Source: a virus. From it: a stretch of DNA of 42,855 nt. The notes beneath the pieces were generated by a model, which made no database searches, had not been told where the DNA came from, and was given only the letters and a program-made list of their open reading frames with translations. The translations under genes were made by a program, and so were the position numbers. This document shows positions 3,974-32,273 of this stretch, in pieces (position 1 is the stretch's first letter; each line of letters starts with the position of its first letter). The stretch is from IMG/VR virus record IMGVR_UViG_3300049811_000069, positions 1-42,855 of that record, one strand, 5' to 3'.

Positions 3974-4381
3974 ATGGCGAAGGTTGTAACCATCTCTAAC
4001 GGTGAATTCGTCGAGGTAGAACAAATTGAAGTTCTTGAGCGCGCAGTGTCCGACGAAACAGCGAACTTGACTATTGGGACGGCAAAGCTCACATTTAGAA
4101 TGCCCTTCGCAATGACACTTTCACAAGTTCGACTTAATGTGAACACTGCGCCTACTGGGAGCGCACTACAGGTTAATGTTAAAGAGAATGGCACAACAAT
4201 TTTCTCCACCAAGCCGCAGATTGACGCCTCTTCAAAAACAAGCGTTGGCAGCGGAACCCCTGCTGTGATAAGTGACCCAGCACTCGCAGACGATGCCGAA
4301 ATTACGGTAGATATTGACCAAGTTGGCAGCACTGTTGCTGGAAAAGGTCTTAAGATTTGTCTTATCGGAGTTAAGGCATGA
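3974..4381 (+). CDS. Putative virion protein, carbohydrate-binding-like beta domain
   Basis: The protein has 135 residues. It shares the NGEFVE docking hairpin of the gene at 3464 near its start. Residues 45-135 (FAMTLSQVRLNVNTAPTGSALQVNVKENGTTIF, abbreviated here to its strands) form a pattern of alternating strands ending in DAEITVDIDQVG, typical of a jelly-roll found beside phage fibre genes. Proteins of this pattern are widespread in tailed phages near tail fibres, but their ligands are mostly unknown. A GAGGTG ribosome site lies 6-7 bases upstream, and the stop overlaps the next start (ATGA). Confidence 0.62.
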   Translation: MAKVVTISNGEFVEVEQIEVLERAVSDETANLTIGTAKLTFRMPFAMTLSQVRLNVNTAPTGSALQVNVKENGTTIFSTKPQIDASSKTSVGSGTPAVISDPALADDAEITVDIDQVGSTVAGKGLKICLIGVKA

Positions 4382-5202
4382 GTTACTTAGTTAACCCATT
4401 CCGCTTCGTAACAGGAGGCGGCCCGACTTACGATCCAGACGCTCAGGATTATTTTGATCGTGTGGCGACGGCTGGTTGTGTTATCGCAGACGACGCTAAA
4501 ACCGTCGTAAATAACTTTGTTCTCGCTCTAAAGGCGGGTGACAATTACTGGTCGATTATAGACCATCTGAACATTTTTGGGGCTTGCGGTTCTCTTGTTG
4601 GCGCGGCAGTGCCATTAAAAGGCTCTGTTAACGCACAGTTTTTTAACATCGTTGCTGGTGATTATAACAGAAAAACCGGAATCAAGGGAAACGCTTCAAA
4701 TAAGTATATCAACACAGGAAGGCTTATAACCCAGCAAGCGCAAAATGATGCACATTACGCCTGCCATTTAACAGAAGCACCAACAGGAAACACTTCTTAT
4801 TTTGGTGCAGGCGGCACAACGGGTGGCGCTGTAAGCTACTCGGGTGGTGGAACCTCACAGCATTCTGTTCGACTTCACTACGGAAACACGGCAGCAATCG
4901 GCCCGACCGGCAACTTCACAGGCTCTTTTATTATCTCTCGTGCAACAACTCCAGCTTATGTCGTGCGTGCGAACAGTACAAACTACAGCGGTTCAAGTGG
5001 AACAGTGACACAAAACCCTCGACAGATATTCTGTTTGGCCCGTGGAAACTCCACGAGTAATGACACAACGCCGACCGCGTATACAAATGCTAGAATCCTT
5101 GTGTTTTGTTGCGGTGTGAACTGTCACACAGGAGTTTATACACGAGAAGGACTAGATACACTTTTGACTGACTTTAAAAACGCAATGGCGGCTTTAGCTT
5201 GA
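4378..5202 (+). CDS. Putative tail-tip/appendage protein (LamG-like pattern)
   Basis: The protein has 274 residues. The first 20 residues (NPFRFVTGGGPTYDPDAQ) and the helical segment DYFDRVATAGCVIADDAK with FVLALKAGDNYWSIID match a recurrent module of phage appendage proteins. Residues 75-240 are glycine-, asparagine-, serine- and threonine-rich beta sequence such as concanavalin/LamG-type folds show, and a short C-terminal helix follows. It probably binds a surface glycan or decorates the tail. Several cysteines are present (CCGVNC near residue 245), which is unusual for an exposed virion protein. The fold call is by pattern only. Confidence 0.6.
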   Translation: MSYLVNPFRFVTGGGPTYDPDAQDYFDRVATAGCVIADDAKTVVNNFVLALKAGDNYWSIIDHLNIFGACGSLVGAAVPLKGSVNAQFFNIVAGDYNRKTGIKGNASNKYINTGRLITQQAQNDAHYACHLTEAPTGNTSYFGAGGTTGGAVSYSGGGTSQHSVRLHYGNTAAIGPTGNFTGSFIISRATTPAYVVRANSTNYSGSSGTVTQNPRQIFCLARGNSTSNDTTPTAYTNARILVFCCGVNCHTGVYTREGLDTLLTDFKNAMAALA

Positions 5203-6451: not shown

Positions 6452-6643
6452 GTGGAATTTGAGCAGTGCCCTAACATGTGCATCAACGGGGTGTTGCTAG
6501 TTGACCCTTTACATCCTAGAATCTGGGTAGTTTGTCCACACTGTGAAGAGGGTATCGCATTCTGTGAGAGGCATACTAAAAAGAAAATTAAGAAGCGTAA
6601 ACAGAAGGGAAAAGACGAGCCTCGGCATCCTTCCGAACCTTAA
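6452..6643 (+). CDS. Small Cys-rich protein, putative zinc ribbon
   Basis: The protein has 63 residues from a GTG start at 6452, with GAGGT upstream at a reasonable distance. CPNMC and CPHC pairs, separated by about 22 residues, and a further cysteine could form a zinc ribbon; the tail is very basic (KKKIKKRKQKGK). Its last 56 bases overlap the 3' end of the HNH gene on the other strand. The end of this gene may therefore have been reshaped when the endonuclease gene arrived. Function is unknown. Confidence 0.55.
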   Translation: MEFEQCPNMCINGVLLVDPLHPRIWVVCPHCEEGIAFCERHTKKKIKKRKQKGKDEPRHPSEP

Positions 6644-7271
6644 TAGCTTCCTCTAGTGTCTTAAATTTTCCAAGGCGAACTATTTTCCCAAAAGTTCTGA
6701 TACTGGCGTCCCATTTATTATATGTTCGGTCAAAGCTTACTCCAACAGTACCAGATGTGTTTCGTGAGGTTTTTCTTCTATTTATTGCTTGAATATTCCA
6801 ATTAGCCCATCTGCAGTTTGATGGCTCATAATTACCGTTAACATCTATACGGTCAATGCTGTGCTTTGGGCTGGGCCGTGCTCCCATGTCGGTGATAAAG
6901 TTCTCAAAAGATTCTTTCCATCTATCACAGACCGTTATTCCTCGTTCTCCGTAGTGTTTGTAGTATTTTGTCCCTTTTAAATAACAACGGTCTTTCATTG
7001 CTCGCCAAGATCTATATTCTGGAGAATACGCACCACCATGACTGGTAATCCTTTCAATATGTATACATCCACATGATTTAACAGCCCCTCGTACTACCAT
7101 GGATTTTCCGATAACCTTGCGATTACCGCAATCACACAGGAACCACCAATATTGTGCGTATATATGTTTTTTATGCGAGAGACATTCTGCAGTGAGTCTG
7201 CCGAATCTTTGCCCTGTGATATCGATTGATTTTGTCAAGATTACCGTCTCCTCTTCTGATGGTTGTGCCAT
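6588..7271 (-). CDS. Free-standing HNH homing endonuclease with AP2-like DNA-binding domain
   Basis: The protein has 227 residues from the ATG at 7271. A TTG at 7238 with a better ribosome site (GAGGAG) is an alternative and would begin close to DITGQRFGRL, the usual N-terminus of this family. A cysteine pair (CDCG, then SCGC) lies in the N-terminal third. The HNH core is HSIDRIDVNGNYEPSNCRW, and the C-terminal 50 residues (GTVGVSFDRTYNKWDA...) look like an AP2 domain. It is encoded against the surrounding late genes and has its own predicted promoter (7303-7331). It is most likely a mobile endonuclease gene that sits between two lysis-region genes. Confidence 0.88.
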   Translation of the reverse strand: MAQPSEEETVILTKSIDITGQRFGRLTAECLSHKKHIYAQYWWFLCDCGNRKVIGKSMVVRGAVKSCGCIHIERITSHGGAYSPEYRSWRAMKDRCYLKGTKYYKHYGERGITVCDRWKESFENFITDMGARPSPKHSIDRIDVNGNYEPSNCRWANWNIQAINRRKTSRNTSGTVGVSFDRTYNKWDASIRTFGKIVRLGKFKTLEEAIKVRKDAEARLFPSVYAS

Positions 7272-7302: not shown

Positions 7303-7331
7303 TTTATACATTTGACGTGATATGCTGTCAA
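7303..7331 (-). promoter_or_regulatory. Predicted sigma70 promoter for the antisense HNH gene
   Basis: On the minus strand TTGACA (7326-7331) is followed after exactly 17 bases by TATAAA (7303-7308). Both boxes are at or near consensus. Transcription would start near 7296, about 25 bases before the HNH ATG. The -35 lies just upstream of the endolysin ribosome site, so the promoter fires away from the lysis gene into the endonuclease gene. Confidence 0.65.
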
Positions 7332-7351
7332 CAAACCAAAGGAGAGTCCAA

Positions 7352-8416
7352 ATGCTTATTGATTGTAGCGACCCAATAGCTAATTTTCTGTTGAAGTTTA
7401 ACTTAGCAAGTTTGCCAAAGGTCGAAGACCCAAAGCCCGTGCCAAGTAATCTAACCGCATGGCAGAAGCTCATCGCAAGCGTAAAAGCAAGCGACATGAG
7501 CGAGGCTATGAAAGTGGCTTGCATTGCCCAAGCCATAATCGAGTCAGGTCGTGGAACAAGTCGAGTCACTGCTGATTGCTGCAACTTTTGGGGCATCAAG
7601 ATGCGACCCGAACTAGAAGGCATGGCGGTTGGTAGGATTGTGAAAGTCACGTCAGAAGTCGAAGGCATGGCAGTATTCGCTGCATTTGAGTCCACAGATA
7701 TTGCCGTAAAAGGTTGGCTGAAATTCTTGTCGAGAAGCTACTACAAAGGCTGGGAAGAGCACAAAAACGACTCTGAAGCGTTCCTTAAACACATTGGAGA
7801 ATCATGGTGCCCTGTCGATGGTTACGCAGAAAAGGTAATCAAGTGCATACCAGAGGCCAAGAATTTGTTGGGAGTAACTGTTGCAACTAAAGGTAAACTC
7901 ATTGCTGTAGACTCTGGTCATTCTCTCAGCGAAGCCGGAGCACATAGCAAACTTGGCGCAAAAGAAGAGGTGTTGAACATTCAACAGGCGAATATCATCA
8001 AGGCACAGCTTGAAAAGTATGAGCACACTGTAAAGCTTGTTGCAGGCAAAACAAACGACTTAGATGGTCGTGGCGCTCAAGCAAAAGGTTGTGATGCTTT
8101 TATTTCTTTGCATCACAACAGCTATGATGGAGACAAAGACCCAGGCACCGAAGTATTCTGTACGACGCAATCAAGCGGAGTTTGCCGAGATATTGCTAGG
8201 AAAGTATGTGATAATATTTGTAAGGCGCTTGGCACCACAAATAGAGGCGTTAAGATTAACAACTGGAGTGTGATTAACGCTGCACAAAAGACAGGCTGCC
8301 CTATCGTTATGCTAGTTGAGAGTTACTTCGTAAACCCTTACACTCAAGAACAGGCAGAGAAGCGTAGTGCTATTGCAGCGATTGCGATAGCCGAAGTTTT
8401 AAAGGAGTCCCTATGA
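7352..8416 (+). CDS. Bifunctional endolysin: glucosaminidase plus N-acetylmuramoyl-L-alanine amidase
   Basis: The protein has 354 residues from the ATG at 7352, chosen for the AAAGGAG ribosome site; an ATG at 7322 is less likely. Residues 25-170 form a FlgJ/LytG-type glucosaminidase, with catalytic glutamate E64 in AQAIIESGRG and the CNFWGIK motif. Residues 183-352 form an Amidase_3 domain: VDSGHS (zinc ligand H190), KEEVLN (glutamate near 204), SLHHNSYDG (H254) and MLVESYFV (catalytic E323). The enzyme would cut both the glycan chain and the stem peptide bond. No signal peptide is visible, so release should depend on a holin. The two-hydrolase build is uncommon in phages of this size. Confidence 0.93.
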   Translation: MLIDCSDPIANFLLKFNLASLPKVEDPKPVPSNLTAWQKLIASVKASDMSEAMKVACIAQAIIESGRGTSRVTADCCNFWGIKMRPELEGMAVGRIVKVTSEVEGMAVFAAFESTDIAVKGWLKFLSRSYYKGWEEHKNDSEAFLKHIGESWCPVDGYAEKVIKCIPEAKNLLGVTVATKGKLIAVDSGHSLSEAGAHSKLGAKEEVLNIQQANIIKAQLEKYEHTVKLVAGKTNDLDGRGAQAKGCDAFISLHHNSYDGDKDPGTEVFCTTQSSGVCRDIARKVCDNICKALGTTNRGVKINNWSVINAAQKTGCPIVMLVESYFVNPYTQEQAEKRSAIAAIAIAEVLKESL

Positions 8417-8828: not shown

Positions 8829-8878
8829 TTTGGATGATTATATTCATAATTATCTCGGTTATTATTAGCTCATTTTGA
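8822..8878 (+). CDS. 18-residue hydrophobic micropeptide
   Basis: An ATG at 8822 opens an 18-codon frame, MLIWMIIFIIISVIISSF, that is one continuous membrane-spanning stretch. It overlaps the gene before by seven bases, and its TGA is followed within 12 bases by the next start. Nothing charged remains at either end. A lysis-related micropeptide is conceivable, since several phages use tiny membrane proteins in lysis, but the frame is short enough to be chance. There is no strong ribosome site. Confidence 0.3.
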   Translation: MLIWMIIFIIISVIISSF

Positions 8879-8889
8879 TGAGGTGTAGC

Positions 8890-9486
8890 ATGGCAAAGCC
8901 AGATTTTAAAAACGAGCCGTGGCGGTGGAATAGATGGTACGCTTCTGAATATGACTCTGAGGCTGTTAACATTGCCGACGACTTCTACACTTTGGATAAG
9001 ACTTGTGACTATGCTTTGCTGTCTGCGCAGTACATGGTTAAGAACAAGAACGGGAAAAGTCCTGACCCTTGTTTTACACCCACAGAAATTCTTGCAGCAA
9101 GTAAAAAGCCTGACTTTCAGGTGGACCCTTGCGCTCGGGTAATTGACGCTTGCTGGCAATCTTACAAACGATGGAAAATGAATGATTCGGTTATCGTTGT
9201 GATGCCTCCACCCGCAGAGCCGCCTAAGACGCTTCCAAAGCCTGACCCTTGGGCGGCACATCCCAATTCGCCTAGCAAGCCTGTGCCAACGCCTAAGACA
9301 GATAAGCTTCCAGAAATCCACTTGCCACAAGAAAAGAAACCAAGACCGGAGTGGGTCGTCAAGGCTTCGGTATGGCTAACCGTTTTGACTCCAGTGAGTC
9401 TCGTGATACTATACTTTGTTCCACCCCCGTTTAACATGATTGCCAAAGCTGTTTTTGAAGCAATCAAACTTTTAATAGGAGGCTAA
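8890..9486 (+). CDS. Proline-rich protein with C-terminal membrane segment
   Basis: The protein has 198 residues from the ATG at 8890 (GAGGTG upstream; ATG 8878 and TTG 8875 are also in frame). Residues 1-105 are soluble and rich in tryptophan, tyrosine and aspartate. Residues 108-155 form a proline-rich linker (PPPAEPPKTLPKPDP), and residues 160-182 are hydrophobic (VWLTVLTPVSLVILYFVPPP) before an amphipathic end. A membrane anchor after an extended linker would suit a spanin-like or envelope role, but the orientation is opposite to an inner-membrane spanin. The family is unknown. Confidence 0.65.
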   Translation: MAKPDFKNEPWRWNRWYASEYDSEAVNIADDFYTLDKTCDYALLSAQYMVKNKNGKSPDPCFTPTEILAASKKPDFQVDPCARVIDACWQSYKRWKMNDSVIVVMPPPAEPPKTLPKPDPWAAHPNSPSKPVPTPKTDKLPEIHLPQEKKPRPEWVVKASVWLTVLTPVSLVILYFVPPPFNMIAKAVFEAIKLLIGG

Positions 9487-9487: not shown

Positions 9488-9691
9488 ATGGCCGGAATTG
9501 AACACTTGCAGAAATTGTTATCAGACGTTGTGGGCGTAGCGATTATTGCTATTAAACAGTCAAAAGAAGCTAAAGACTTCATCGCCGAAGCCAAAGAACT
9601 CGACACAATGGAGATCGTATCGCTTATCACCCAAGCGGTGATGACTGAAGTGCCAAAGATTGTCGAAGCTGTAAAAGCCGACGCCAAATAG
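9488..9691 (+). CDS. Small helical hypothetical protein
   Basis: The protein has 67 residues, with one weakly hydrophobic helix near the start (LLSDVVGVAIIAIKQ) and a second amphipathic helix. It starts one base after the previous stop and has an AGGAGG ribosome site. It is the last gene before the hairpin terminator at 9761. The function is unknown; it may be peripheral to the membrane and work with the gene before it. Confidence 0.6.
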   Translation: MAGIEHLQKLLSDVVGVAIIAIKQSKEAKDFIAEAKELDTMEIVSLITQAVMTEVPKIVEAVKADAK

Positions 9692-9712
9692 TTGACGTTT
9701 CCAAAATATATC

Positions 9713-9752
9713 GAGTCGGGATATACTGGAGATATAAATCTCCTCACGACTC
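9713..9752. repeat. Nested inverted repeats ahead of the terminator
   Basis: GAGTCG at 9713-9718 pairs with CGACTC at 9747-9752. Inside it GGAGAT (9728-9733) pairs with ATCTCC (9738-9743) around a four-base ATAA loop. The double hairpin lies just before the terminator in the 122-base gap between two genes. It may stabilise the upstream mRNA or bind a regulator. Confidence 0.5.
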
Positions 9753-9760
9753 ACATTTGC

Positions 9761-9790
9761 GGGGGCTCTAGTAGCCCTCGTTCTTTTTGG
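9761..9790 (+). terminator. Rho-independent terminator after the lysis genes
   Basis: GGGGGCT (9761-9767) pairs with AGCCCTC (9773-9779) in a seven-pair stem with one G.U and a five-base loop. A T-rich tail (GTTCTTTTT) follows. It lies between the small gene ending at 9691 and the metalloprotease. Expression of the protease must therefore rely on read-through, antitermination or a promoter I cannot see. Confidence 0.75.
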
Positions 9791-9813
9791 CCCACACATA
9801 AAGGAATCACCAC

Positions 9814-11409
9814 ATGTCAAAGATGAACATTCTACCGGAAGACTTGTGCGAAGGCTTAGTTGCAGAAGAAGCTAACTTGATTCCCGACGCCGTTGGGATG
9901 CCGCCAACAATCAGCGCTCCTATTACTCTGCTCGCAGAAGTTTCAGACGCAGATGTGTTTAAGCTTCACAGTAATCCAACGGCAACAAAGACAATCTTTC
10001 TAGATTTTAATGGTCACAGCGTTGCAAACTCTCCTTGGGAGAACGGTGGGGCTTTGAAACTAGCGCCTTACTATAGCAAAACGGACGCTACAACTCGCCA
10101 AGAGGTACAGAGGATTTGGCGCAGAGTGGCCGAAGATTTTGCCCCTTTTAACGTGGATGTAACCACAGAAGATCCCGGAGCGGAGAACCTCCGCAAGTTT
10201 GGCGCTGGCGATGAGCGTTGGGGTATTCGTTGTTGCTTTACAAGTAACCTCAATGTGCTTACTGGTAAGCCGATTATGAACGCCGGAGGCGGCGGCACTG
10301 CCTACTATAACAGCTTCAATTGGAGCACGGATGACGTGTGCCTTGTGTTTAATCGGGGTGAATATACTGGCTCAAACACTGCTTCTCATGAAGTAGGTCA
10401 CACCCTTGGACTTACGCATGATGGCACGCCTACAGGCGGCGAATACTATGCAGGCCACGGAACAGGCTCAACAAGTTGGGGAACCATTATGGGCGCTCCG
10501 TGGCTTGGCAACGACGAGCTTTTGACTCAATGGAGTAAAGGAGAATACTTCGCCGCTAACTGCCAGCAGGACGACCTTGCAACAATTACGGGCTATAATG
10601 GCTTCGGATTCATCGCAGATGACCACGGGAATAGCTTTGAAACTGCTACCCCACTATTGGGCACTTCGTTTAGCTGTACGGGGCTAATAGGTGCCAGCCT
10701 CGATGTGGACTTCTTTAAATTCGTGACCGAAGTAGAAGGTGTGTCAACGTTTAAGTTCGAGAATATCGTTAGGGGATATATTAATAACGGCGGAGTATAC
10801 ACGCCTAAATACTTCACTTCACGGGGGCCAAATCTCGATATCTCTGTAACACTCTATCGAGAAGATAAAACCGTTATTCAGACCTTCAATCCTGCTGATA
10901 AGATTACTGCAGACTTTTCTATCAGTTTACCCGCTGGCACATATTATTTAAGCGTTGATGGTGTTGGCTTTGGCAATCCTCTCGCAAGTCCTCCAGTCGG
11001 ATATACCGACTATGGAAGCCTTGGGCAGTATATGCTAACAGGGAATCTGCAAGCCGCTCCACTGCCTCCAGTTGAGCCACCGCCTAGCACCATTCAGGTT
11101 ATTGACCCTAATGGCGCTGTTCAGCTTCTCCGTGATATCAAAACCGATTTGGTATCGGTGCGTGTGAATGGCTCAACTCTACCTGTTCGGTTGAACAAAG
11201 TGCAGATTAAATCTAACCAATTCCCTGATAAGCAAATTCTAGCTGCAGAAGTCACTGCAGGCAAAAACGAGATTCTCTGGAAAGAAATCTCAACAGGAAA
11301 GATTCGCACATGGTCGCTTGATAGCGGGTGGAATTACATCACAAACACACCACTGGTTGAGCCTACGAGTGCGGAAGGGCTTGCGTTAAAGAGTCGATTC
11401 CAAGTATAA
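9814..11409 (+). CDS. Metzincin-type zinc metalloprotease with PPC and W_rich_C-like domains
   Basis: The protein has 531 residues. The active site HEVGHTLGLTHD (H192, E193, H196, H202) is the extended HExxHxxGxxHD zinc motif of metzincins, and the methionine of SWGTIMG (M226) fits the Met-turn. The segment IFLDFNGH at about residues 60-67, with IWRRVAEDFAPFNVDV, matches a bacterial reprolysin-like family. Residues 270-410 look like a pre-peptidase C-terminal (PPC) beta domain, followed by a PPVEPPPS linker. The final 95 residues (EILWKEISTGKIRTWSLDSGWN as strands) resemble the W_rich_C domain found in cyanobacterial surface proteins. There is no signal peptide. A metzincin in a phage is rare; it may be virion-borne or act at lysis. 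Confidence 0.88.
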   Translation: MSKMNILPEDLCEGLVAEEANLIPDAVGMPPTISAPITLLAEVSDADVFKLHSNPTATKTIFLDFNGHSVANSPWENGGALKLAPYYSKTDATTRQEVQRIWRRVAEDFAPFNVDVTTEDPGAENLRKFGAGDERWGIRCCFTSNLNVLTGKPIMNAGGGGTAYYNSFNWSTDDVCLVFNRGEYTGSNTASHEVGHTLGLTHDGTPTGGEYYAGHGTGSTSWGTIMGAPWLGNDELLTQWSKGEYFAANCQQDDLATITGYNGFGFIADDHGNSFETATPLLGTSFSCTGLIGASLDVDFFKFVTEVEGVSTFKFENIVRGYINNGGVYTPKYFTSRGPNLDISVTLYREDKTVIQTFNPADKITADFSISLPAGTYYLSVDGVGFGNPLASPPVGYTDYGSLGQYMLTGNLQAAPLPPVEPPPSTIQVIDPNGAVQLLRDIKTDLVSVRVNGSTLPVRLNKVQIKSNQFPDKQILAAEVTAGKNEILWKEISTGKIRTWSLDSGWNYITNTPLVEPTSAEGLALKSRFQV

Positions 11410-11420: not shown

Positions 11421-11624
11421 ATGTTGAAGGAAGAAAAACAGCAACGCATTGCCACACTTTTAGCAGACCTGCAAGATAAGCTGTTAGACCTTGCTTTCCT
11501 AAAAGAGAGGGTGGAACATACCACCAATGCTGCGAAGGTTTATTATCAGAATGAGCTTAGAAAAGAGCAAGGCAAGCTCGACAAGATTAGAGAAGAGTTA
11601 ACTAGGCTGGGGGCGAAGAATTGA
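11421..11624 (+). CDS. Small coiled-coil protein
   Basis: The protein has 67 residues, almost wholly helical and charged (KEEKQQRIATLLADLQDKLLDL onward), and is predicted to form a coiled coil. A GGAGGCGGT ribosome site precedes the ATG. Its stop overlaps a TTG start of the next gene (TTGA). Role unknown; it might be a small antirepressor or a partner of the Fis-like protein it is coupled to. Confidence 0.6.
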   Translation: MLKEEKQQRIATLLADLQDKLLDLAFLKERVEHTTNAAKVYYQNELRKEQGKLDKIREELTRLGAKN

Positions 11625-11977
11625 ACACAGGCCAGGCATTACATGACGCAGTTATGAACGGCGAAATTGGGCTGTTTGAAGCAAAAAAATTGTTTGCACT
11701 TGCGGTTATCGGTACAAGTTTAAAACATTTTGACGGTAACATCGCTGCAACTGCTAGGGCTTTAGGAGTTGAAAGAACGAGTCTTAGCGAGATGATTAGA
11801 ACTCGCATGAACTTACACAAGCTAATAGCTAAGACAAAGCGCAAGGTACGAGTAGAAAAGAAGAGAGAATATTGCCCAGAATGTAGAAGCGTTCTAACGC
11901 CTAGCGGGTGTTTTGGTTGCGTCATCATCGCAGAGTGTCTTGATAGTGTCGGCTCTGTGTCGCCATTGAATAGGTAA
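11621..11977 (+). CDS. Fis-type HTH protein with Cys-rich tail
   Basis: The protein has 118 residues from a TTG start at 11621 whose TTGA overlap with the previous stop argues for this start. Residues 33-62 (HFDGNIAATARALGVERTSL) form a Fis/NtrC-type helix-turn-helix. The C-terminal part has a CPEC...SGCFGC cluster that could bind zinc. The last 84 bases overlap the 3' end of another Fis-like gene on the opposite strand. It is likely a DNA-binding regulator of late or lysis genes; the target is unknown. Confidence 0.7.
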   Translation: MNTGQALHDAVMNGEIGLFEAKKLFALAVIGTSLKHFDGNIAATARALGVERTSLSEMIRTRMNLHKLIAKTKRKVRVEKKREYCPECRSVLTPSGCFGCVIIAECLDSVGSVSPLNR

Positions 11978-12142
11978 GCCGAGCTTAGCATAGCGTCGGA
12001 CTTTGTATTGAATACACCGAAAACTAAGCCTCAGGGCGTCGGCTGTGTTTGTGAGATTACCGTCGAACAAATCAAGGTGGGCCTTGATTATTTTGTATTC
12101 ACAAATTTCAAGCGGGCCAAACTCTGGAGGCCAGTCGGTCAT
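11894..12142 (-). CDS. Second Fis-type HTH protein, convergent with the first
   Basis: The protein has 82 residues from the ATG at 12142, which overlaps the methylase stop (ATGA); a GTG at 12157 is also in frame. The motif AHLDLFDGNLTNTADALRL is the same Fis-type HTH pattern as in the gene at 11621 (both have FDGN-x3-TA-x-AL). It is the last gene of the leftward operon, and its end overlaps the convergent gene by 84 bases. The two look like paralogues that serve the two opposing transcription units. Confidence 0.7.
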   Translation of the reverse strand: MTDWPPEFGPLEICEYKIIKAHLDLFDGNLTNTADALRLSFRCIQYKVRRYAKLGLPIQWRHRADTIKTLCDDDATKTPARR

Positions 12143-13074
12143 TTTTTCATCTCCCACTTCTCAATTCGGTATGGCGGCCATGAGATGAAGGGGTCTTTCG
12201 CCTTCGCAAAACAATCGAACGCGCCACTATCGTAGAGCTTCTGTATCTCTTCTCGCACTGGCACACGGTTGAAACGTCTCCAGACTACCTCGGTGCGCTT
12301 GCGGTTCTGGTCGCTTTCGTCCTGCTTCTTTGAGCGGTCATAGCCTACGCGCCCACTGCTTGATGCGTTCGCCTCAAACTCGAAGCGCTCCCAATCGCTT
12401 GGAATCTTCACATCCGGCTGGTCGTAATTGGATAGCAGAAAGCTGCCATGACAAGCGTGTAATGTGCCCACCAGTTCACGGAAATGGTCGAGAGTGTAGC
12501 CGTCATAGTGCCCTTGGTCTGCGTCGGGATACGGCGGGTCGCAGTAGAAAAACGTTTGTGGGCTATCAAATTGCTTGATCACTTTCAAAGCGTCATCACA
12601 AGAAACTTGCACACTTGCCATGCGATCAAGATATTGCGGAAGTTCTGCTATTTTGTTCGCCCACGCTGCGGATAGATTGCAGCTAAAAACGGCGCGACGC
12701 CATCCGCCGCCTATCATGTGTGAAAAACTTTGCTGCACGTTCACATAATACCGGCGGGCTAGCTCAAGAGGCGTGCCGTTTTCTAAGTCTTTTGCGGTTT
12801 GGTGCTCCGCTTCTGAGTTCAATGTTAGCTGTATTTGCCTAACAAGTTCCTCGCCGTTCTCGCGCATTTGCTGATAGAAATTTATCAGACGCTTGTCGTG
12901 GTCGTTTATCACTTCGCGGTAGTTGTTGTTGCTCACGTTGGGCCGCGGCTTTGCAAAGAGCACCGTAGCACCGCCACAGAACGGCTCAACATAAACCGTG
13001 TGCCTTGGAATTAGTGGGATGATGTGATGTGCCATGCGTTGCTTTCCGCCGTAATATGAGATTATGGGTTTCAT
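12139..13074 (-). CDS. D12-class DNA adenine methyltransferase (Dam-like)
   Basis: The protein has 311 residues from the ATG at 13074, which overlaps the stop of the gene before (ATGA); an upstream start at 13113 is less likely. Motifs of the D12 family are complete: ISYYGGK (residues 5-11), VEPFCGGATVLF (29-40, the AdoMet-binding loop) and CDPPY (D179-Y182, the catalytic motif of N6-adenine methylases). It would methylate adenine in phage DNA, probably to escape host restriction or mark phage DNA. The start and end of the gene are coupled to its neighbours. Confidence 0.92.
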   Translation of the reverse strand: MKPIISYYGGKQRMAHHIIPLIPRHTVYVEPFCGGATVLFAKPRPNVSNNNYREVINDHDKRLINFYQQMRENGEELVRQIQLTLNSEAEHQTAKDLENGTPLELARRYYVNVQQSFSHMIGGGWRRAVFSCNLSAAWANKIAELPQYLDRMASVQVSCDDALKVIKQFDSPQTFFYCDPPYPDADQGHYDGYTLDHFRELVGTLHACHGSFLLSNYDQPDVKIPSDWERFEFEANASSSGRVGYDRSKKQDESDQNRKRTEVVWRRFNRVPVREEIQKLYDSGAFDCFAKAKDPFISWPPYRIEKWEMKK

Positions 13075-13547: not shown

Positions 13548-13760
13548 TCAGTAGTTACTCCGGCGTTCGCCTTTAGCGATTCTTACCTGATTTTCGACAG
13601 TCTGTGCAAAGAAATAATCTTTTTTTACACAGCGTATGAGCCAATCCTCGCACAGTAAATGCTTTTTAACTCCGAGCACTTGATAGCCACTTTCTTTGAT
13701 GTGGTTGTACAAGCGTCGATATTCGTTGCGCCCAATAGGGCAGCGGAATACTTTAATCAT
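13548..13760 (-). CDS. Small basic hypothetical protein
   Basis: The protein has 70 residues from the ATG at 13760, chosen because AAAGGAG lies five bases upstream and because ATGA overlaps the stop of the HNH gene. It is basic (NEYRRLYNHIKESGYQVLG, then VRIAKGERRSNY). The helix-beta pattern recalls small nucleic-acid-binding proteins, but no family is recognised. Confidence 0.6.
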   Translation of the reverse strand: MIKVFRCPIGRNEYRRLYNHIKESGYQVLGVKKHLLCEDWLIRCVKKDYFFAQTVENQVRIAKGERRSNY

Positions 13761-14254
13761 TTTGACTCCTTTCGGCATTCTTGTTCCACCTTTTCTCGCT
13801 CTATTAAGTATCTGGCATGGGCCTCTTGTTCGGTTTTGTAGCGACCAATATATCGTTGTCTACCATTTTCGTTTATTCCTACTTGCCACCCGTTCTTATG
13901 GAATGTACAACCTTGAAGTTTACCTTCTCGATGAATTTTTTTGTTTAAGCTGTTGTCCCTTTGGGAAACATCACGCAAATTACATATGCGGTTATCGTCC
14001 TTAATCCCATTTATATGGTCAATGTGCTTTGTAGGCCACTCACCGTAAACGTAGAGCCATGCTAACCGATGTGCTTTACATTCTGTTTTGTTTACGCTTA
14101 TCCTTCTATATCCGAATCGGTGTATATTTCCTGCTATGACGCCGCTTTTGTGAGCCCTGTTTTTGAGTTTCCAAACAAAAATACCAGTATCAGGATTGTA
14201 ATCTAAAACCCTTTTTAGTTCTTCTTGTGTTGCTGGTGTTATGGTTTTGCGCAT
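13757..14254 (-). CDS. HNH endonuclease with AP2-like tail
   Basis: The protein has 165 residues. The start recalls a 'TPEELKRVLDYNPDTGIFVWK' N-terminal module (here ATQEELKRVLDYNPDTG), typical of HNH_3-type homing endonucleases. The core is HIDHINGIKDDNRICNLR (catalytic His pair and Asn), and the C-terminal 45 residues (GCTFHKNGWQVGINENG) resemble an AP2 DNA-binding domain. It overlaps the glycosyltransferase by 16 bases and the next gene by ATGA, so it has been fitted neatly into the operon and lies in the same orientation as its neighbours. Confidence 0.88.
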   Translation of the reverse strand: MRKTITPATQEELKRVLDYNPDTGIFVWKLKNRAHKSGVIAGNIHRFGYRRISVNKTECKAHRLAWLYVYGEWPTKHIDHINGIKDDNRICNLRDVSQRDNSLNKKIHREGKLQGCTFHKNGWQVGINENGRQRYIGRYKTEQEAHARYLIEREKVEQECRKESK

Positions 14255-14997
14255 GATTGTTCTCGATCTACCATAAATTGGATATCATTAAATTCGCGCC
14301 TAAAGTCATCTATATGCCGCTTATCGTTATGGTGGGCATGTCGAATTTTGAACTGTCTGAACCATTCATCTTCATAGCTTTCATAAAGGTCCTTCCAACC
14401 TTCGAGACTATTTAATGCGAAAACCCAACGCTTATCAACCTGATTGAGATATTTCCACATTGTAGCTTCTAAGTGCCCATAGTATTCTGTCGGTTCCTGA
14501 AGCCCGCCTACTTGTCGCAACCATTCTGTTTGCCACAAAATAAGGCCCATAATTACAGGATGGTCGGGAATTATGAGCCAACCCGCTGGGCCTTTCTCGA
14601 ATGTTGGGTTTCTCATTTCTGTTAGGGAATATGTGTTGAATGCCTGCACAACTACATTCCGCACATCTTTAGCGTGAGCAAGTAATGCTTCATCAAAATG
14701 ACGACTGCAGATAAACATATCGGGATCAACACCCAAAATATGGCTCGTTTCCACATATGACATACATAAGTTGAAGCCATTATGAAGCCCAATGTTTTTC
14801 CCGTGCGGGGTGTGAAGTAGTGTATATCCATAAGTCCTTTCATTTGCCGCAAGCCATGCAGAGGCTTTTGGGGAATAATTGTTATCGAGAACGAGCCATT
14901 TGTCGGTTTTCTTAAGCTCTTTGACCATTTTGAATGTTCTTTCGATCGTCGGAACATTCGCACAACACACAGTTACCACGGTGCAATCAATTGTCAC
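14239..14997 (-). CDS. GT-A-like glycosyltransferase
   Basis: The protein has 252 residues from a GTG start at 14997, where GGAGG lies seven bases upstream and GTGA overlaps the previous stop; a TTG at 15003 is also in frame. The first 20 residues form a Rossmann-like strand (CTVVTVCCANVPTIERT), LVLDNNYS follows, and ILGVDPDMFIC carries the DxD-type metal and nucleotide-sugar motif. The C-terminal half has an acceptor-like region (WQTEWLRQVGG). It may glycosylate phage DNA, a virion protein or a host surface molecule; the sequence does not say which. It sits among recombination and methylation genes, which mildly favours DNA. Confidence 0.72.
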   Translation of the reverse strand: MTIDCTVVTVCCANVPTIERTFKMVKELKKTDKWLVLDNNYSPKASAWLAANERTYGYTLLHTPHGKNIGLHNGFNLCMSYVETSHILGVDPDMFICSRHFDEALLAHAKDVRNVVVQAFNTYSLTEMRNPTFEKGPAGWLIIPDHPVIMGLILWQTEWLRQVGGLQEPTEYYGHLEATMWKYLNQVDKRWVFALNSLEGWKDLYESYEDEWFRQFKIRHAHHNDKRHIDDFRREFNDIQFMVDREQSCAKP

Positions 14998-15218
14998 GTC
15001 CAATCCTCCGAAATGTAGTTTTCAACCCAAGAATCATGCTCAGAATAAGACATTGCAAACCAGCTTTTCGATTTCTCATCAAAATAGCTTTTAGCAAAAA
15101 TATGAGAACAAGTTCCATCTTCGTGTGAAATATCTCCCATGTATTTAACAATACCTGCATACTTATGTTTGTAAGTAAAGCCTATTGCATAGTGCTGATT
15201 TTGAATCGGTCTGCTCAT
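14994..15218 (-). CDS. Small hypothetical protein
   Basis: The protein has 74 residues from the ATG at 15218, which overlaps the helicase stop (ATGA); an upstream ATG at 15242 is less likely. It is beta-rich and aromatic (HYAIGFTYKHKYAGIVKYMGD). The compact, single-domain look suggests a small enzyme-associated or nucleic-acid-binding protein, but no family is recognised. It is coupled to the helicase and the glycosyltransferase. Confidence 0.58.
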   Translation of the reverse strand: MSRPIQNQHYAIGFTYKHKYAGIVKYMGDISHEDGTCSHIFAKSYFDEKSKSWFAMSYSEHDSWVENYISEDWT

Positions 15219-22775: not shown

Positions 22776-23278
22776 AGCCATATGAGCGCAACAATAAAAA
22801 GCACTCTCAAGCTCAAATCGATCTGCTAGCAAAGCAAATTCAAGAGCACAAATACGATCAACCTATTGTCGTTGACAAAGATTTGGTCATCATTAAGGGC
22901 CATGCAAGACACCTCGCACTTCAACAACTCGGCTACAAATCCATTGAGGTTGTGGTGCGCGATGACCTCACCCCTGAGCAATGTGCAGCAGCTCGACTTG
23001 CTGACAACAGAATATCTGCTCTTGGTGAAGACGACATGGAGATGATTAAACTCGAACTCTCAGAACTCAAGCTCGAAGGCTTCGACTTGGAGCTGACGGG
23101 ATTTGATGCCGAGTTTTTGGAGAAGCTGAGTCCTGAATTTGAGCCAGACTTGCCAGATGATGAAGACAAAGAAAAGGAACATGGCAAGCTAGTGTTGCGT
23201 GTGGAATTTGAGAACGAGGAAGAAATGCAACAGCTATTCTTCGAGCTTCGTGATCGTGGCTTGGCGGTGAAAATATGA
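22742..23278 (+). CDS. ParB/Srx-fold protein
   Basis: The protein has 178 residues from the ATG at 22742 (AAGGAAAAG upstream). The N-terminal 110 residues form a ParB-like nuclease/CTPase fold: EVEVSKIKPYERNN, QPIVVDKDLVIIKGHARHLAL (GHAR at 53-56) and VRDDLTPEQCAAARLADNR. In phages this fold usually sits next to DNA methylases or terminase genes, as here. The C-terminal 60 residues are acidic (DLPDDEDKEKEHGK). It may recognise DNA for methylation or replication, or act as a nuclease; the domain call is firm, the role is not. Confidence 0.86.
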   Translation: MQRKEVEVSKIKPYERNNKKHSQAQIDLLAKQIQEHKYDQPIVVDKDLVIIKGHARHLALQQLGYKSIEVVVRDDLTPEQCAAARLADNRISALGEDDMEMIKLELSELKLEGFDLELTGFDAEFLEKLSPEFEPDLPDDEDKEKEHGKLVLRVEFENEEEMQQLFFELRDRGLAVKI

Positions 23279-23787
23279 GCGAGAAGAAAAAGCCAAGACA
23301 TCTATTTTGCCGGTGCGGCTGTGGAACAGAACTTCCAAGAGATGGCGAATGGCGCAAGTATTCGAGAGCGGTTTATGTAACGGGTCACAATGTTCCAATA
23401 AGAAATAAGGTTTCATTGATTGATAAGACAAAAGACAATAGGAAAAATCAGACAGGATTTTTGGCCGCAAAAAGAATATCAAATATAAGAAAAGATGCAA
23501 TAAAAGCTGGATACAAATGGGAACTAGATGATCTTTTTGTTTACGAAAAGATGACAGGAGATTGCGTATATTGCGGAAAGCCTTCTGGTTGGCCTAATAG
23601 TAGAAATGGAATAGATAGAATTGATTCGTCAGTTGGTTATGTTGTTGAAAATTGCGTGTCTTGTTGCCGCGCATGTAATGGCGCTAAGTCCAATCAAACG
23701 ACAGATGATTTTTATTTGTGGGTAAAGCGAATATACATAAACCTATTAAAAAATGGATTCATCGAAAAAGAGGTGAGCCATGGCTGA
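23275..23787 (+). CDS. HNH homing endonuclease between ParB-like and methylase genes
   Basis: The protein has 170 residues. It starts with a small CRCGCGTEL zinc motif. The catalytic part is CVYCGKPS (C97, C100), GIDRIDSSVGYVVENC and CCRACNGAKS, the arrangement of HNH_5-like enzymes. Base composition is more AT-rich than in the flanking genes, which suggests recent arrival. It overlaps the gene before by ATGA and the methylase start by eight bases. Confidence 0.87.
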   Translation: MSEKKKPRHLFCRCGCGTELPRDGEWRKYSRAVYVTGHNVPIRNKVSLIDKTKDNRKNQTGFLAAKRISNIRKDAIKAGYKWELDDLFVYEKMTGDCVYCGKPSGWPNSRNGIDRIDSSVGYVVENCVSCCRACNGAKSNQTTDDFYLWVKRIYINLLKNGFIEKEVSHG

Positions 23788-24739
23788 ATTCGGTGTTCCG
23801 TACATGGGAAGTAAGAGCGAAATTGCTGAAAGTATCGCTATCAACTTCCCAAAAGCTGATCACTTCTACGATCTGTTTGGCGGCGGATTCAGCATGACGC
23901 ATTGCATACTCACAACGAAGGCGAAAAACTATAAGCACTTCCACTACAACGAAATCAAACCTCACATTGTTGATGTTGTGCGACGTGCTATCGCTGGAGA
24001 GTTCAACTATGCCACGTTCAAGCCTCCGTGGGTATCGCGTGCAGAGTTTCATGAGAAGAAATACACCGATGGTTATGTGGCAACATGCTGGAGCTTTGGT
24101 AACAACGGAGAGGGCTATTTATTTTCTGAAGACATCGAAGAATACAAGCGAACAATGCACATGGCCGTTGTGTTTGATGAGTTTAATTCTCTCGCAAAAG
24201 CCGTGCTGAAGTTTGACAAGTGGCCCGCAATCGCCAAGACAATTAAGCAACGCCGTTTTTATTTACGACAACTACTTGAGCACTACCGGAAAACAAAACT
24301 GCCAAGCGTGCTCATTCCGTTTTTGAGCGAGAAACAGAAAGCAAGTCTAGCGGCACATCGACCTTTTCAAGAGTTGCAGCAGTTGCAGCAGTTGCAGCAG
24401 TTGCAGCAGTTGGAGCGGTTGCAGCAGTTGGAGCGGTTGCAGCAGTTGGAGCGGTTAACTCTAACTAGTCTCGACTATCGCGATGTTGAGATACTGCCTA
24501 ACAGCGTTGTTTATTGCGATATTCCTTATCAAGGCACCGCTGAATACGGAAACAGTTTCAACCATAAAGAGTTCTTTGATTGGGCCGCATCTCGCACGTT
24601 CCCTGTATTCATATCAGAGTATGATGTGCCAGATAAGCGTTTCAAGTTAGTTTATGAAGTAAAGAAGCGGTGCATATTAACGCAATCCGGTGAGTCAAAC
24701 AAAATTAAAAAAGAACGGCTTTATTGGAATGGGGTTTGA
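23780..24739 (+). CDS. D12-class adenine methylase with variant DIPY motif and LQQ/LER repeat
   Basis: The protein has 319 residues. D12 features are VPYMGSKSEIA (6-16), FYDLFGGGFSM (29-39) and VYCDIPYQGTAEYG, in which DIPY (247-250) stands for the usual DPPY. Residues 199-225, just before the catalytic motif, are nine tandem tripeptides of LQQ and LER type encoded by 9-base repeats. It probably methylates adenine in a sequence chosen partly by this loop region. The proline-to-isoleucine change occurs in some phage D12 enzymes, so it may still be active. It works beside the ParB-like gene. Confidence 0.87.
   Translation: MAEFGVPYMGSKSEIAESIAINFPKADHFYDLFGGGFSMTHCILTTKAKNYKHFHYNEIKPHIVDVVRRAIAGEFNYATFKPPWVSRAEFHEKKYTDGYVATCWSFGNNGEGYLFSEDIEEYKRTMHMAVVFDEFNSLAKAVLKFDKWPAIAKTIKQRRFYLRQLLEHYRKTKLPSVLIPFLSEKQKASLAAHRPFQELQQLQQLQQLQQLERLQQLERLQQLERLTLTSLDYRDVEILPNSVVYCDIPYQGTAEYGNSFNHKEFFDWAASRTFPVFISEYDVPDKRFKLVYEVKKRCILTQSGESNKIKKERLYWNGV
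24374..24454 (+). repeat. Nine tandem 9-base repeats inside the methylase gene
   Basis: Four copies of TTGCAGCAG are followed by TTGGAGCGG, TTGCAGCAG, TTGGAGCGG, TTGCAGCAG, TTGGAGCGG (81 bases in all). Each unit encodes LQQ or LER, so gain or loss of units changes the protein's length by three residues without shifting the frame. Confidence 0.95.
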
Positions 24740-24947: not shown

Positions 24948-25383
24948 ACGCTATGACTTCAAGAACAATCCCAAAGACCGACAGCTTGGAATCTCCATGT
25001 ACATCGTTGCAGGGGGTCGCTATTCCGATGACCCGAAAAATCCGCACCATCGAGGAATGGCGTGGCGTTTAGGGCTAAGTATTGACCAGTTAGCAAGATA
25101 TAGAGAAGAGGATGAGACATTTGATGCGGAGTGTGAAGCCGCACTAGCCGCTGAAGACTTCAATTTAAGACAGCGCGCAATCAAGGGCTGCTTCAATAAA
25201 GACGGTGAGGTTATTGCTGAGAAGCTCCTAGCACGCTTCTTAGAATCTCGTGGCGTCATCGAAAAAGAATCGAAAGGCCCTACAACAGCGCTGCAACTCA
25301 ATGCAGGAAGTGGCGGCATACAAGTGGCCTTCGTAGAGCCTAACGCTCAGCTTGTCGAGGCAATTGATGGCCAAGCGGATTGA
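24934..25383 (+). CDS. terS: Terminase small subunit
   Basis: The protein has 149 residues. Helices in the N-terminal half (NPHHRGMAWRLGLSIDQLARYRE) form an HTH-like DNA-binding region. The middle (EDFNLRQRAIKGCFNKDGEVIAEKLLARFLES) is the oligomerisation helix pair typical of small terminases, and the last 30 residues form the beta tail that contacts the large subunit. It lies immediately before the large terminase and overlaps it by 17 bases. It should choose the packaging start on phage DNA. Confidence 0.82.
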   Translation: MAMPKRYDFKNNPKDRQLGISMYIVAGGRYSDDPKNPHHRGMAWRLGLSIDQLARYREEDETFDAECEAALAAEDFNLRQRAIKGCFNKDGEVIAEKLLARFLESRGVIEKESKGPTTALQLNAGSGGIQVAFVEPNAQLVEAIDGQAD

Positions 25384-26587
25384 GCTTCCTGCAAAACTAC
25401 AGAGTTTAATCCACACCACAGCACGCTACAACGTGATTCATGGAGGACGTGGAAGCGCCAAGTCTGAGAGTGTCGCCCGTGCTTTAATCATTGCATCAAT
25501 GCAGGGCTACCAACGCATTCTCTGTTGTCGTGAGTTTCAAAGCTCCATACGAGAGTCAGTGCATGCGCTCCTTAAAAGCGTTATCGTTGAGCATGAGCTG
25601 CAAGCTTATTTTGAAGTGACCTATGTTAGCATCAAGTGTGTTGTGAATGGCTCAGAGTTTGTCTTCGCTGGCCTCGCAGAACATTCTGTCGACTCTATTA
25701 AAAGTCTATTTGGCTTTACCATCGTATGGATTGAAGAGGCCCAACGCCTTTCCCGTCGCTCGATGGATTTGCTCCTGCCAACCATTCGTGCAAAAGACTC
25801 AAAGTTTTATTTCACCTTCAACCCCGAGCTTGAAACCGACCCCGTGTACAAGCGATTCGTAGGCTCACCGGACCCGCAGGATGACGCCCTTGTTATCGAG
25901 ATGAATTACTATGACAACCCGTGGTTTCCCGACGTTCTCCGCACTGAAATGGAAGCCTGCAAACGTCGATCGCTCGAAGACTATCTGCACATTTGGGCAG
26001 GCAAGACTCGAACATTCACCAAAGCAAGCATCTTGGGACACCTAGTCAAAGAGCAAGCTTTTGAGCCTGAGTCTTCATGGACTCCTTACTACGGCATCGA
26101 CTGGGGCTTTGCAGCAGACCCCACAGCCTGTGGCCGATTGTTCTATCACGACCGTAAGCTCTACATGCGAAATGAGTTCTATGCTCATGGAATAGAAATC
26201 AACGAATATGCTACTGCGTTTCGCTCTGTGCCTGGTGCAGACAAGCATGAGCTGTGGGCTGACAACTCTCGACCAGAATGCATCAGCTATCTGAACAACC
26301 CCGTCAACTATCCAGACCGCAAGCCGCTCAACGTCAAAGCCGCACCAAAATGGTCGGGCTCTGTTGAAGACGGCATTGCATGGCTTCGCACTCTCGATGC
26401 TATAATCATCCACCCAGAATGTAAGAACGCTCTCTATGAAGTGCCCCGATGGTCGTGGAAAGTGGACAAAGTGACCGGAGATATTCTCCCTGTGCCTGCT
26501 GACGGAAACGACCATATTCCAGACTTAATCAGGTATAGCATGAATAAGTTTATCAAAAAGAAATTCACCTCGTTCGATATTCTTTGA
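25367..26587 (+). CDS. terL: Terminase large subunit (PBSX/XtmB type)
   Basis: The protein has 406 residues from the ATG at 25367; a TTG at 25352 is also in frame. The ATPase motor shows HGGRGSAKS (Walker A, 26-33) and IVWIEEA (Walker B with catalytic Glu, 119-125). The RNase H-like nuclease begins with YYGIDWGFAADPTAC (first metal Asp near 245) and continues with LWADNSRPECI. The enzyme cuts concatemeric DNA and pumps it into the prohead. Circular permutation of the assembly would agree with headful packaging, but that is an inference. Confidence 0.95.
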   Translation: MAKRIELPAKLQSLIHTTARYNVIHGGRGSAKSESVARALIIASMQGYQRILCCREFQSSIRESVHALLKSVIVEHELQAYFEVTYVSIKCVVNGSEFVFAGLAEHSVDSIKSLFGFTIVWIEEAQRLSRRSMDLLLPTIRAKDSKFYFTFNPELETDPVYKRFVGSPDPQDDALVIEMNYYDNPWFPDVLRTEMEACKRRSLEDYLHIWAGKTRTFTKASILGHLVKEQAFEPESSWTPYYGIDWGFAADPTACGRLFYHDRKLYMRNEFYAHGIEINEYATAFRSVPGADKHELWADNSRPECISYLNNPVNYPDRKPLNVKAAPKWSGSVEDGIAWLRTLDAIIIHPECKNALYEVPRWSWKVDKVTGDILPVPADGNDHIPDLIRYSMNKFIKKKFTSFDIL

Positions 26588-26597
26588 GGAGAGAAAT

Positions 26598-27452
26598 ATG
26601 AAAATTGCGCTCGTCTCTGATTCCCTTCGTTCCGGCTGTCACATCTATCGAGGCCTGCCTTACAAAAAGCTCGTAGGTGCCACAATCACAGAATATGACT
26701 TGTCCAATTTTCTGTTCTCAAACTGCCTGCTAGACAACGACCTTTTCGTTGTGTTTCGTCCCCACCTGCCTGCTCATCTCGCTGTCATCCAGATGGCTCA
26801 CGCAATGGGAAAAAGAATCATCATCGATTGGGATGACGACTTTACACAAGTACCGGACTGGAACCCGAACTACAAAGTGTTCAAAAAAAGCGCTGAGAAC
26901 GTCAAGGCGTGTTCAAGAGAGGCCAACCTTGTCACTGTATCAACTGAAGCTTTAGCTGAGCGCGCGCTTGCTTGGGGGGCTAAAAAGGTTGCAGTTATTA
27001 AGAACGCCGTTGATGACTGTTACAAGGCTTTCCCAAAGCTAGAACGTCAGCCCATTGTCGTGTGGCGAGGGTCGAAAACTCACGCCGGAGACGTCGAAGT
27101 GGGCAAAGCAAAATTCTTCGAACTCGCTCAGACCCACAAGTTTGTTTTCTTCGGGCGACCTCCAGCTTGGGCTCGCAACATGAATCACGAGCATGTGCCT
27201 GAGACGCATTACGTCACCTACATGGCTCTCTTGCATCGTTGTGCCCCTGAGTTCATGTTCGTGCCACTCGCTGACGTTCCTTTCAATCATGCGAAGAGCG
27301 ACATCGCCGCGCAAGAGTGTTACGCTGTAGGAGCAAAGCTCATTCACAACGGCGTCGGCGAATATTCTGGACTGCCAGATTGGCAAGAGCCTCGGTGGTT
27401 GAGTACAGTTAACGAGCAACGTGTTTTAGCAATTCAGGAGGCTATGAAATGA
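26598..27452 (+). CDS. GT-B-type glycosyltransferase inserted between terminase and portal
   Basis: The protein has 284 residues. It starts with KIALVSDSLRSGCHIYRG, a Rossmann start of GT1/GT4 families, then RIIIDWDDDFTQVPDWNP and a second domain with VWRGSKTHAGD, FGRPP and SDIAAQECYAVGAKLIHN, which holds the nucleotide-sugar site. The gene sits between the terminase and portal genes, with ATGA overlap to the portal, so it is made with structural proteins. It may glycosylate a virion protein such as the capsid. That placement is unusual and differs from the GT-A enzyme at 14239. Confidence 0.78.
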   Translation: MKIALVSDSLRSGCHIYRGLPYKKLVGATITEYDLSNFLFSNCLLDNDLFVVFRPHLPAHLAVIQMAHAMGKRIIIDWDDDFTQVPDWNPNYKVFKKSAENVKACSREANLVTVSTEALAERALAWGAKKVAVIKNAVDDCYKAFPKLERQPIVVWRGSKTHAGDVEVGKAKFFELAQTHKFVFFGRPPAWARNMNHEHVPETHYVTYMALLHRCAPEFMFVPLADVPFNHAKSDIAAQECYAVGAKLIHNGVGEYSGLPDWQEPRWLSTVNEQRVLAIQEAMK

Positions 27453-28822
27453 AAAAGAAAGTTGCACCAATCAAAAAGAAGGTGCTCAAAAACTCCCAAG
27501 TGAAAAACAACGGAGCGCTCCAACAGTTCACTCAGCAGGCGTGCAGACCTTCTGAAGTCTCACAGCTTGACCTCATCCAAAACAATCTGCGTTATGGTGC
27601 GCTCACCTTAAACCCCATGCTCATCACAGAAATGCTGCAAGAGCACGCGCTAGTACGTCGGTTCATTCGCCAGCCGATTGAGGACGCATACAGAGGTGGA
27701 GTGCAAATAAAATGTGACGAGTTCTCCGCCGATGATATACACAAACTTCAGCAAAAGATGGAAGAGTGTAACGACATTCAACTTCTCATCGAAGCTCGTG
27801 AATGGGCTGAAGCTTTCGGTGGAGCGGGCATCATCGTCAACGCTGGGCAGGAGTTTGACAAAGAATTTTCGCTTGAACAAATCAAGCAAGATTCCAAATT
27901 GGAATTTTACGCTGCAGACCGCTGGGAGTTGAATCAAACAACCACAGGCAATGCGCTTGACCAGACCGTAGACCCGCTCTCAGACGTGCCGTACCTTTAT
28001 TACTCGCACAAGCTGCACCGCTCTTGTGTTTTGCGACTAGAAGGTCAACGTGCCCCCTCTCGTATTAGAGGCCAATTCTCAGGCTGGGGTGTCTCTCGTT
28101 TAGAGGGCATCGTGCGTTCATGGAATCAGTACCTAAAGCACCAAGAGATAGCCTACGAACTTGCTGACGAGTGCAAGCTAGATGTTTTCCGCATGGACGG
28201 CTTCAACGAAGCGCTTGCAAGTGCTGACGGTGTCGCTCAAGTCACCGCTCGTGTGCAGCTCTCTGCAGAATTAAAGAACTACAAAAACGCTCTGGTCATG
28301 GACAAAGACGATGAATTCGAGCAGAAGAGCATATCATTCTCAGGCATTCCTGAGATGATGAACGAGAACCGCAAGGGCATCTGTGCAGACCTCGGAACAC
28401 CGATGACCAAGCTCTTTGGCCTTTCCGCTTCTGGCTTCAACAGCGGAGAAGACGACATCGAGACTTGGAACGCCAAGATTGAAAGCGAAGTGCGCTCGAA
28501 AGACCGCAACGCTTTATTGTTCATGATTCAAGCTCGCTGTAAGCAACTCTTCGGCTATGTGCCTGACTCCATCTCGTTCGAGTTCAAGTCCCTTCGTGTT
28601 CTCTCAGAAGAGCAAGAGCAGACGATCAAAGATAAGAAGCTCGACAGGATTTTACGTCTCAAGCAAGAGGGATTGATACCTGCCCAAACCGCTATCGGAC
28701 TTATCAACGCTGAAAAGATTTTCGCACTAGACTTAGAAGAAAACGAGGTTGAGGATGTTCAACAAGAAACTGAGCAAGCCGAAGGAACTGGAACCCGTAG
28801 CGACGCCGGAAAGCCACTCTGA
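27449..28822 (+). CDS. Portal protein (DUF1073-type)
   Basis: The protein has 457 residues. A DLIQNNLRYGALTLNP start, FIRQPIEDAYRGG, AREWAEAFGGAGIIVNAG and the stretch MMNENRKGICADLGTPMTKLFG are typical of DUF1073 portals. The C-terminal 60 residues are acidic and helical. Twelve copies would form the ring through which DNA passes. The next gene starts 68 bases before this stop, in another frame, as is common for portal and MuF genes. Confidence 0.9.
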   Translation: MKKKVAPIKKKVLKNSQVKNNGALQQFTQQACRPSEVSQLDLIQNNLRYGALTLNPMLITEMLQEHALVRRFIRQPIEDAYRGGVQIKCDEFSADDIHKLQQKMEECNDIQLLIEAREWAEAFGGAGIIVNAGQEFDKEFSLEQIKQDSKLEFYAADRWELNQTTTGNALDQTVDPLSDVPYLYYSHKLHRSCVLRLEGQRAPSRIRGQFSGWGVSRLEGIVRSWNQYLKHQEIAYELADECKLDVFRMDGFNEALASADGVAQVTARVQLSAELKNYKNALVMDKDDEFEQKSISFSGIPEMMNENRKGICADLGTPMTKLFGLSASGFNSGEDDIETWNAKIESEVRSKDRNALLFMIQARCKQLFGYVPDSISFEFKSLRVLSEEQEQTIKDKKLDRILRLKQEGLIPAQTAIGLINAEKIFALDLEENEVEDVQQETEQAEGTGTRSDAGKPL

Positions 28823-32258: not shown

Positions 32259-32273
32259 TTAAGGAGGAATCTC

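Follow-up and report, generated by a model that had tools for sequence, protein, structure and literature searches.

The window analysed here is a whole viral contig of 42,855 bp (IMG/VR record IMGVR_UViG_3300049811_000069), and because a perfect 127-bp direct repeat stands at its ends it closes into a circle of about 42.7 kb. The gene set is that of a myovirus (terminase, portal, Mu F-like head protein, capsid, tail sheath, tape measure, hub and baseplate); the ORFs that were scanned included no integrase, RNA elements and tRNAs were searched for and none found, and megablast of the 25000-42855 part returned no phage relatives. The Mu F-like head protein (28749-30629, plus strand) is split at about residues 325-620 by an intein-like segment (CFIGDTSIEL...VIASNC), which scores below the cut-off with the Pfam Intein_splicing model (E 8e-6), and the relatives of this head protein are about 320 residues long and uninterrupted. 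Within the gene of a D12-class adenine methyltransferase (23780-24739, plus strand) lies a 9-bp tandem repeat (24372-24456, LQQ/LER). Likely homing-type endonucleases are encoded at 6588-7271 (minus strand, AP2-like, absent from the sister phage described below), 13757-14254 (minus strand, HNH_3) and 23275-23787 (plus strand, HNH-like as judged by eye), and glycosyltransferase-like genes at 26598-27452 (plus strand) and 14239-15003 (minus strand), one of them between terminase and portal.

The gene under study encodes a metzincin of 531 residues, exactly at the coordinates and of the length that the preliminary description had given. Its locus, together with a tail-region gene that serves as a host marker, comprises the following features.

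4378 to 5202, plus strand: tail-region protein with phage relatives only in cyanophages
7322 to 8416, plus strand: endolysin, glucosaminidase plus N-acetylmuramoyl-L-alanine amidase, 89% identical to the sister phage
8875 to 9486, plus strand: 203-residue protein with a C-terminal transmembrane segment, possibly holin- or spanin-like; left flank, partly conserved in the sister
9685 to 9754, plus strand: conserved intergenic element closing the preceding gene block, 77% to the sister (L042:10130-10210)
9759 to 9781, plus strand: terminator-like hairpin of 9 pairs, then TCTTTTT; a different hairpin occupies the equivalent place in the sister
9800 to 9805, plus strand: ribosome-binding site AAAGGA ahead of the ATG, from the sequence
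9814 to 11409, plus strand: metzincin gene, with short pro-segment, catalytic domain, PPC and W_rich_C
9814 to 9978, plus strand: N-terminal segment, residues 1-55, predicted to be disordered to about residue 32 (alignment and model)
9979 to 10602, plus strand: reprolysin-like catalytic domain, residues 56-263 (Pfam and predicted structure)
10387 to 10422, plus strand: zinc motif HEVGHTLGLTHD, residues 192-203, unchanged in 31 homologues
10489 to 10491, plus strand: Met-turn methionine, M226 (alignment)
10621 to 11055, plus strand: PPC domain, residues about 270-414 (fold match of the predicted structure)
11125 to 11406, plus strand: W_rich_C domain, residues 438-531 (PF07483, E 2.9e-15)
11421 to 11624, plus strand: 67-residue ORF starting 12 nt past the metzincin stop; sister orthologue beyond the variable site, 62%
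11621 to 11977, plus strand: Fis-type HTH protein, right-hand conserved flank, 83% to the sister

The protein belongs to metzincin clan MA(M), as it has the HExxHxxGxxH/D zinc motif, the Met-turn after the third ligand and the fold. Residues H192, E193, H196, H202, D203 and M226 are invariant among the 31 aligned homologues, so that by its residues the active site appears intact and protease activity is predicted. An AlphaFold model built from 31 sequences (mean pLDDT 78) has three domains. In this model, residues 56-263 resemble the snake venom metalloproteinases BaP1, atrolysin C and BmooMP-I, with Z scores of 8.7-9.2 over about 150 residues. The motif, the Met-turn and the catalytic fold are thus held in common with the reprolysins (MEROPS M12B; snake venom P-I enzymes and ADAMs), from which the phage protein differs by having neither disintegrin nor Cys-rich domains and by scoring just below the Pfam cut-offs (PF13582, 22.2 bits against 22.4; PF13688, 21.9 against 27), both of which are exceeded by a host homologue (25.1 and 27.5 bits for L004). 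The second domain is assigned to PPC by its predicted fold, which matches the collagen-binding domain of ColG (Z 15.3) and the PPC of a Bacillus anthracis collagenase (Z 12.3), with a sequence score under the Pfam threshold (PF04151, E 0.083). For the third domain, modelled mostly at pLDDT above 80, the PF07483 score of 56.6 bits is well over the curated cut-off of 26.2, and the protein terminates at the boundary of this domain; residues 1-32 and the loop 205-222 of the model are unreliable. The zinc motif, Met-turn, PPC-like domain and W_rich_C-like end first read from the letters are in this way all borne out, as is the lack of a signal peptide, since hydropathy reveals neither a signal peptide nor a transmembrane segment. 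There was no match to PHROG families. A role as a defence gene was considered and rejected because PADLOC returned no match for the metzincin.

A syntenic sister phage, IMGVR_UViG_3300035670_000480 (L040/L042), informs us about the status of the gene. The two phages share 84% identity in the terminase, 89% in the endolysin, 91-94% in the baseplate and 68-97% in genes of the tail-fibre region. In both, the conserved intergenic element is followed by a terminator-like hairpin, and the 67-residue ORF and the Fis-type HTH gene lie on the far side; this HTH gene and a second one on the opposite strand (11894-12157, minus strand) overlap at their 3' ends, a pair also found in the sister. The sister has no metzincin, and the same flanks enclose a Rha-type regulator on the minus strand (PF09669, E 1.1e-21) and a 97-residue ORF. 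Since another cassette thus sits between shared flanks, the metzincin is an exchangeable insert ending the late block and not a core gene; by this comparison of genomes it is an accessory, moron-like gene. The ATG, behind its ribosome-binding site, stands 25 nt past the T run of the hairpin. The terminator reported ahead of the gene is borne out by this terminator-like hairpin, and transcription beyond it may depend on read-through or on a promoter not recognised here. The preliminary description had offered the protein as a virion or lysis enzyme; the protease itself has held, whereas a part in the core virion or lysis machinery has lost ground, because the gene occupies a conserved site past the terminator and a close sister, which keeps its endolysin, does without it. 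The orthologous flanks of the sister, the 127-bp closure of the contig and a phage-like third-position GC content (GC3 of 0.452 for the metzincin, phage mean 0.473, sd 0.061, cyanobacterial homologues 0.84-0.91) rule out for practical purposes a misassembled host fragment, the objection raised at the outset.

Metzincins of this kind are as rare in tailed phages as had been supposed. Of 50,697 phage records searched, a relative was found in a single other phage, S-CRM01, present as two duplicate records. Among viral contigs, L146 (IMGVR_UViG_3300032294_002612, 166 kb) carries three clustered HExxHxxGxxH metzincin genes and L147 (IMGVR_UViG_3300035670_000030, 144 kb) two neighbouring ones, in each case alternating with long proteins that mostly have no PHROG match, and a 12-kb contig (L144:4879-6519) encodes a metzincin with a signal-peptide-like N-terminus near a protein with a weak tail or baseplate match. 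The S-CRM01 protein, SCRM01_042 (AEC52989.1, 'pre-peptidase C-terminal domain-containing protein'), is alike in its catalytic and PPC domains (54% over residues 1-423), has no signal peptide, and bears a pro-segment cysteine that is likewise 52 residues from the core; its phage also has a freshwater Synechococcus host. S-CRM01 differs in being a 178-kb T4-like phage, in which the gene is flanked by those for the prohead protease (gp21) and the scaffold (gp22) within a run of structural genes, and its protein ends in an F5/8-type domain in place of W_rich_C. The sole match to that domain among the loci compared was a Synechococcus paralogue (L014, 35%, E 2e-26).

The homologues in freshwater Cyanobium and Synechococcus genomes (e.g., NZ_JAGQCY010000005.1, L004) match over the full length at 65% with the same domain order, and differ by a longer N-terminus, usually a second W_rich_C and a tail. 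The complete ones are ORFs of 823-1015 codons that begin about 150-200 residues earlier, with no Sec signal recognisable by eye, and mostly have two W_rich_C copies followed by a conserved C-terminal tail (..WLVATQPLL). The phage copy is shorter by about 150 N-terminal residues, by one W_rich_C copy and by the tail. The idea that the host tail holds a signal for type I secretion was considered and rejected: convincing E-values were obtained only for members of the same family, in four genomes, with no shared signal. In the phylogenetic tree both phage proteins branch among the cyanobacterial ones, basally in the picocyanobacterial group (support 98/96), and the two genes may stem from one capture or from separate ones (support 65/6). 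As judged from sequence, the phage metzincin is derived from the hosts' extracellular reprolysin-type metzincin family. That family was known and the S-CRM01 relative was already deposited under a generic name; new are the finding of a second, unrelated phage that carries the gene, its placement there as an accessory, the loss of sequence at both ends and the conservation of a cysteine in the pro-segment.

The host itself is most likely, we infer, a freshwater picocyanobacterium of the Synechococcus/Cyanobium type. This assignment draws on the tail-region gene, on the relatives of the metzincin in host genomes and on S-CRM01. All ten of the phage records that match the tail-region gene, again among 50,697, are cyanophages (seven of Synechococcus, two named 'Cyanophage' and one of Microcystis). 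Relatives of the metzincin, at 57-65%, come from freshwater Cyanobium, Synechococcus and Aphanothece genomes, in line with the cyanobacterial link at which the C-terminal domain had first hinted. Within a sample of 300 genomes of the family, a match of any strength occurs in 27, and a relative with at least 54% identity across the catalytic domain in 11, all of these genomes being of at least 2.7 Mb. The window's other core genes diverge too far from named phages to help with a host call. Prophage relatives were not found in cyanobacteria by tail sheath (300 genomes of the family) or major capsid (388 genomes of the class), a result that shows little.

The N-terminal segment provides a hint of how the enzyme could be restrained. 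The phage protein starts just ahead of the final cysteine of a CxCRxC motif in the pro-segment of the cyanobacterial homologues, and its C12 (9847-9849) aligns with that last cysteine. Of 31 proteins, 29 (verrucomicrobial ones among them) have a cysteine 20-85 residues ahead of the catalytic core, where 7.7 would be expected from their cysteine content. One of the three motif cysteines is kept here, together with five other cysteines that are mostly absent from relatives; the S-CRM01 protein retains all three and has no others. A pro-segment acting as a cysteine switch would be expected to leave such a pattern, which hints at latency of this type, in which C12 would bind the zinc; the AlphaFold model gives residues 1-32 a pLDDT of about 28 and does not place C12 relative to the metal. 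The conserved cysteine offers a testable prediction on how a phage could prevent a protease of secreted type from doing harm in the cytoplasm.

We tentatively favour, at somewhat less than an even chance, the idea that the gene encodes a moron-like latent protease that is freed at lysis and then attacks proteins of the cell surface. Release at lysis is preferred on account of the missing export signal, the site downstream of the lysis genes and the loss of both terminal extensions, and a phage-derived Listeria metzincin that boosts phage-mediated lysis (PMC8235301) also speaks for it. The metzincin would build up in the cytoplasm, kept latent by a cysteine switch in which C12 sits on the zinc, and this latency would spare phage and host proteins. 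It would escape upon lysis by the neighbouring endolysin and putative holin genes and become active outside, where PPC and W_rich_C would anchor it to polymers on the surface of cells or debris. In Cyanobiaceae, W_rich_C also belongs to giant ORFs of 10,000-15,000 aa and to extracellular proteins of RTX/Calx-beta type, with RTX and Calx-beta-like repeats as its neighbours; from this company we take it to be a building block of proteins that are extracellular or sit on the surface, and its combination with PPC suggests tethering to a surface polymer. There the enzyme could cut proteinaceous envelope or matrix proteins, and cleavage would free virions from debris or matrix, or expose neighbouring cells. 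Three findings count against this reading: the position beyond the terminator, which makes late co-expression with the lysis genes an assumption; the retention of a single motif cysteine beside five others uncommon in relatives; and the S-CRM01 copy in the block of head genes, which would suit a role in the virion just as well.

The latter role, in which the protease would be packaged on tail or head and digest host surface proteins at adsorption, was the leading idea of the preliminary description and seems to us somewhat unlikely. The missing signal peptide, the extracellular-type binding domains, the place of the S-CRM01 homologue between gp21 and gp22 and the existence of other large viral contigs in which long uncharacterised proteins neighbour the two or three metzincin genes would all suit it. 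However, the sister does without a metzincin even though its tail-fibre-region genes are 68-97% identical, the gene lies away from the tail genes and past the terminator, and no trimerisation, baseplate or tail-attachment module is seen in the protein. Quite improbable, in our judgement, is a helper of the lysis module that would reach the periplasm through the holin lesion and cut envelope proteins. The gene indeed follows the endolysin at a distance of 1.4 kb, with a possible holin encoded in the interval, and a phage-derived metzincin of Listeria, the one case that a literature search on phage-borne metzincins turned up, raises sensitivity to phage-mediated lysis (PMC8235301). The Listeria Mtz/Tim pair, a metzincin with a TIMP-like partner of phage origin, differs in that the protease carries a Sec signal peptide and is paired with the gene of an inhibitor, features not seen here, and a lysis role is further opposed by the terminator dividing the gene from the lysis genes, by the sister with the same lysis genes and no metzincin, and by the S-CRM01 copy, which is not next to lysis genes. 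That the gene is transient cargo, captured from a host and either functionless for the phage or serving host ecology, is very improbable: its patchy occurrence (here and in one unrelated phage, with another cassette in the sister) would agree, but the retention of every invariant active-site residue at about 60% identity to relatives, a fully phage-like codon composition and the carriage by two unrelated myoviruses argue for long residence under selection.

Beyond the latent protease freed at lysis that we prefer for this phage, a broader proposition, which we regard as improbable, is that freshwater picocyanobacterial myophages have repeatedly domesticated an extracellular host metzincin, trimming the parts for export and keeping the cysteine latency, so that the enzyme, silent when made in the cytoplasm, gains activity only outside, either upon lysis or as part of the virion, where it opens a protein barrier of the next host, with the C-terminal domains tuning the surface. 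If true, the differing C-terminal binding domains of the phage proteins would set which surface is cut. Phage enzymes that breach surfaces mostly degrade glycans, and proteases are rare among them; the presence of a host-derived metzincin in two unrelated phages of freshwater Synechococcus type suggests that picocyanobacteria have, in proteinaceous surface layers, a barrier that it pays a phage to attack.
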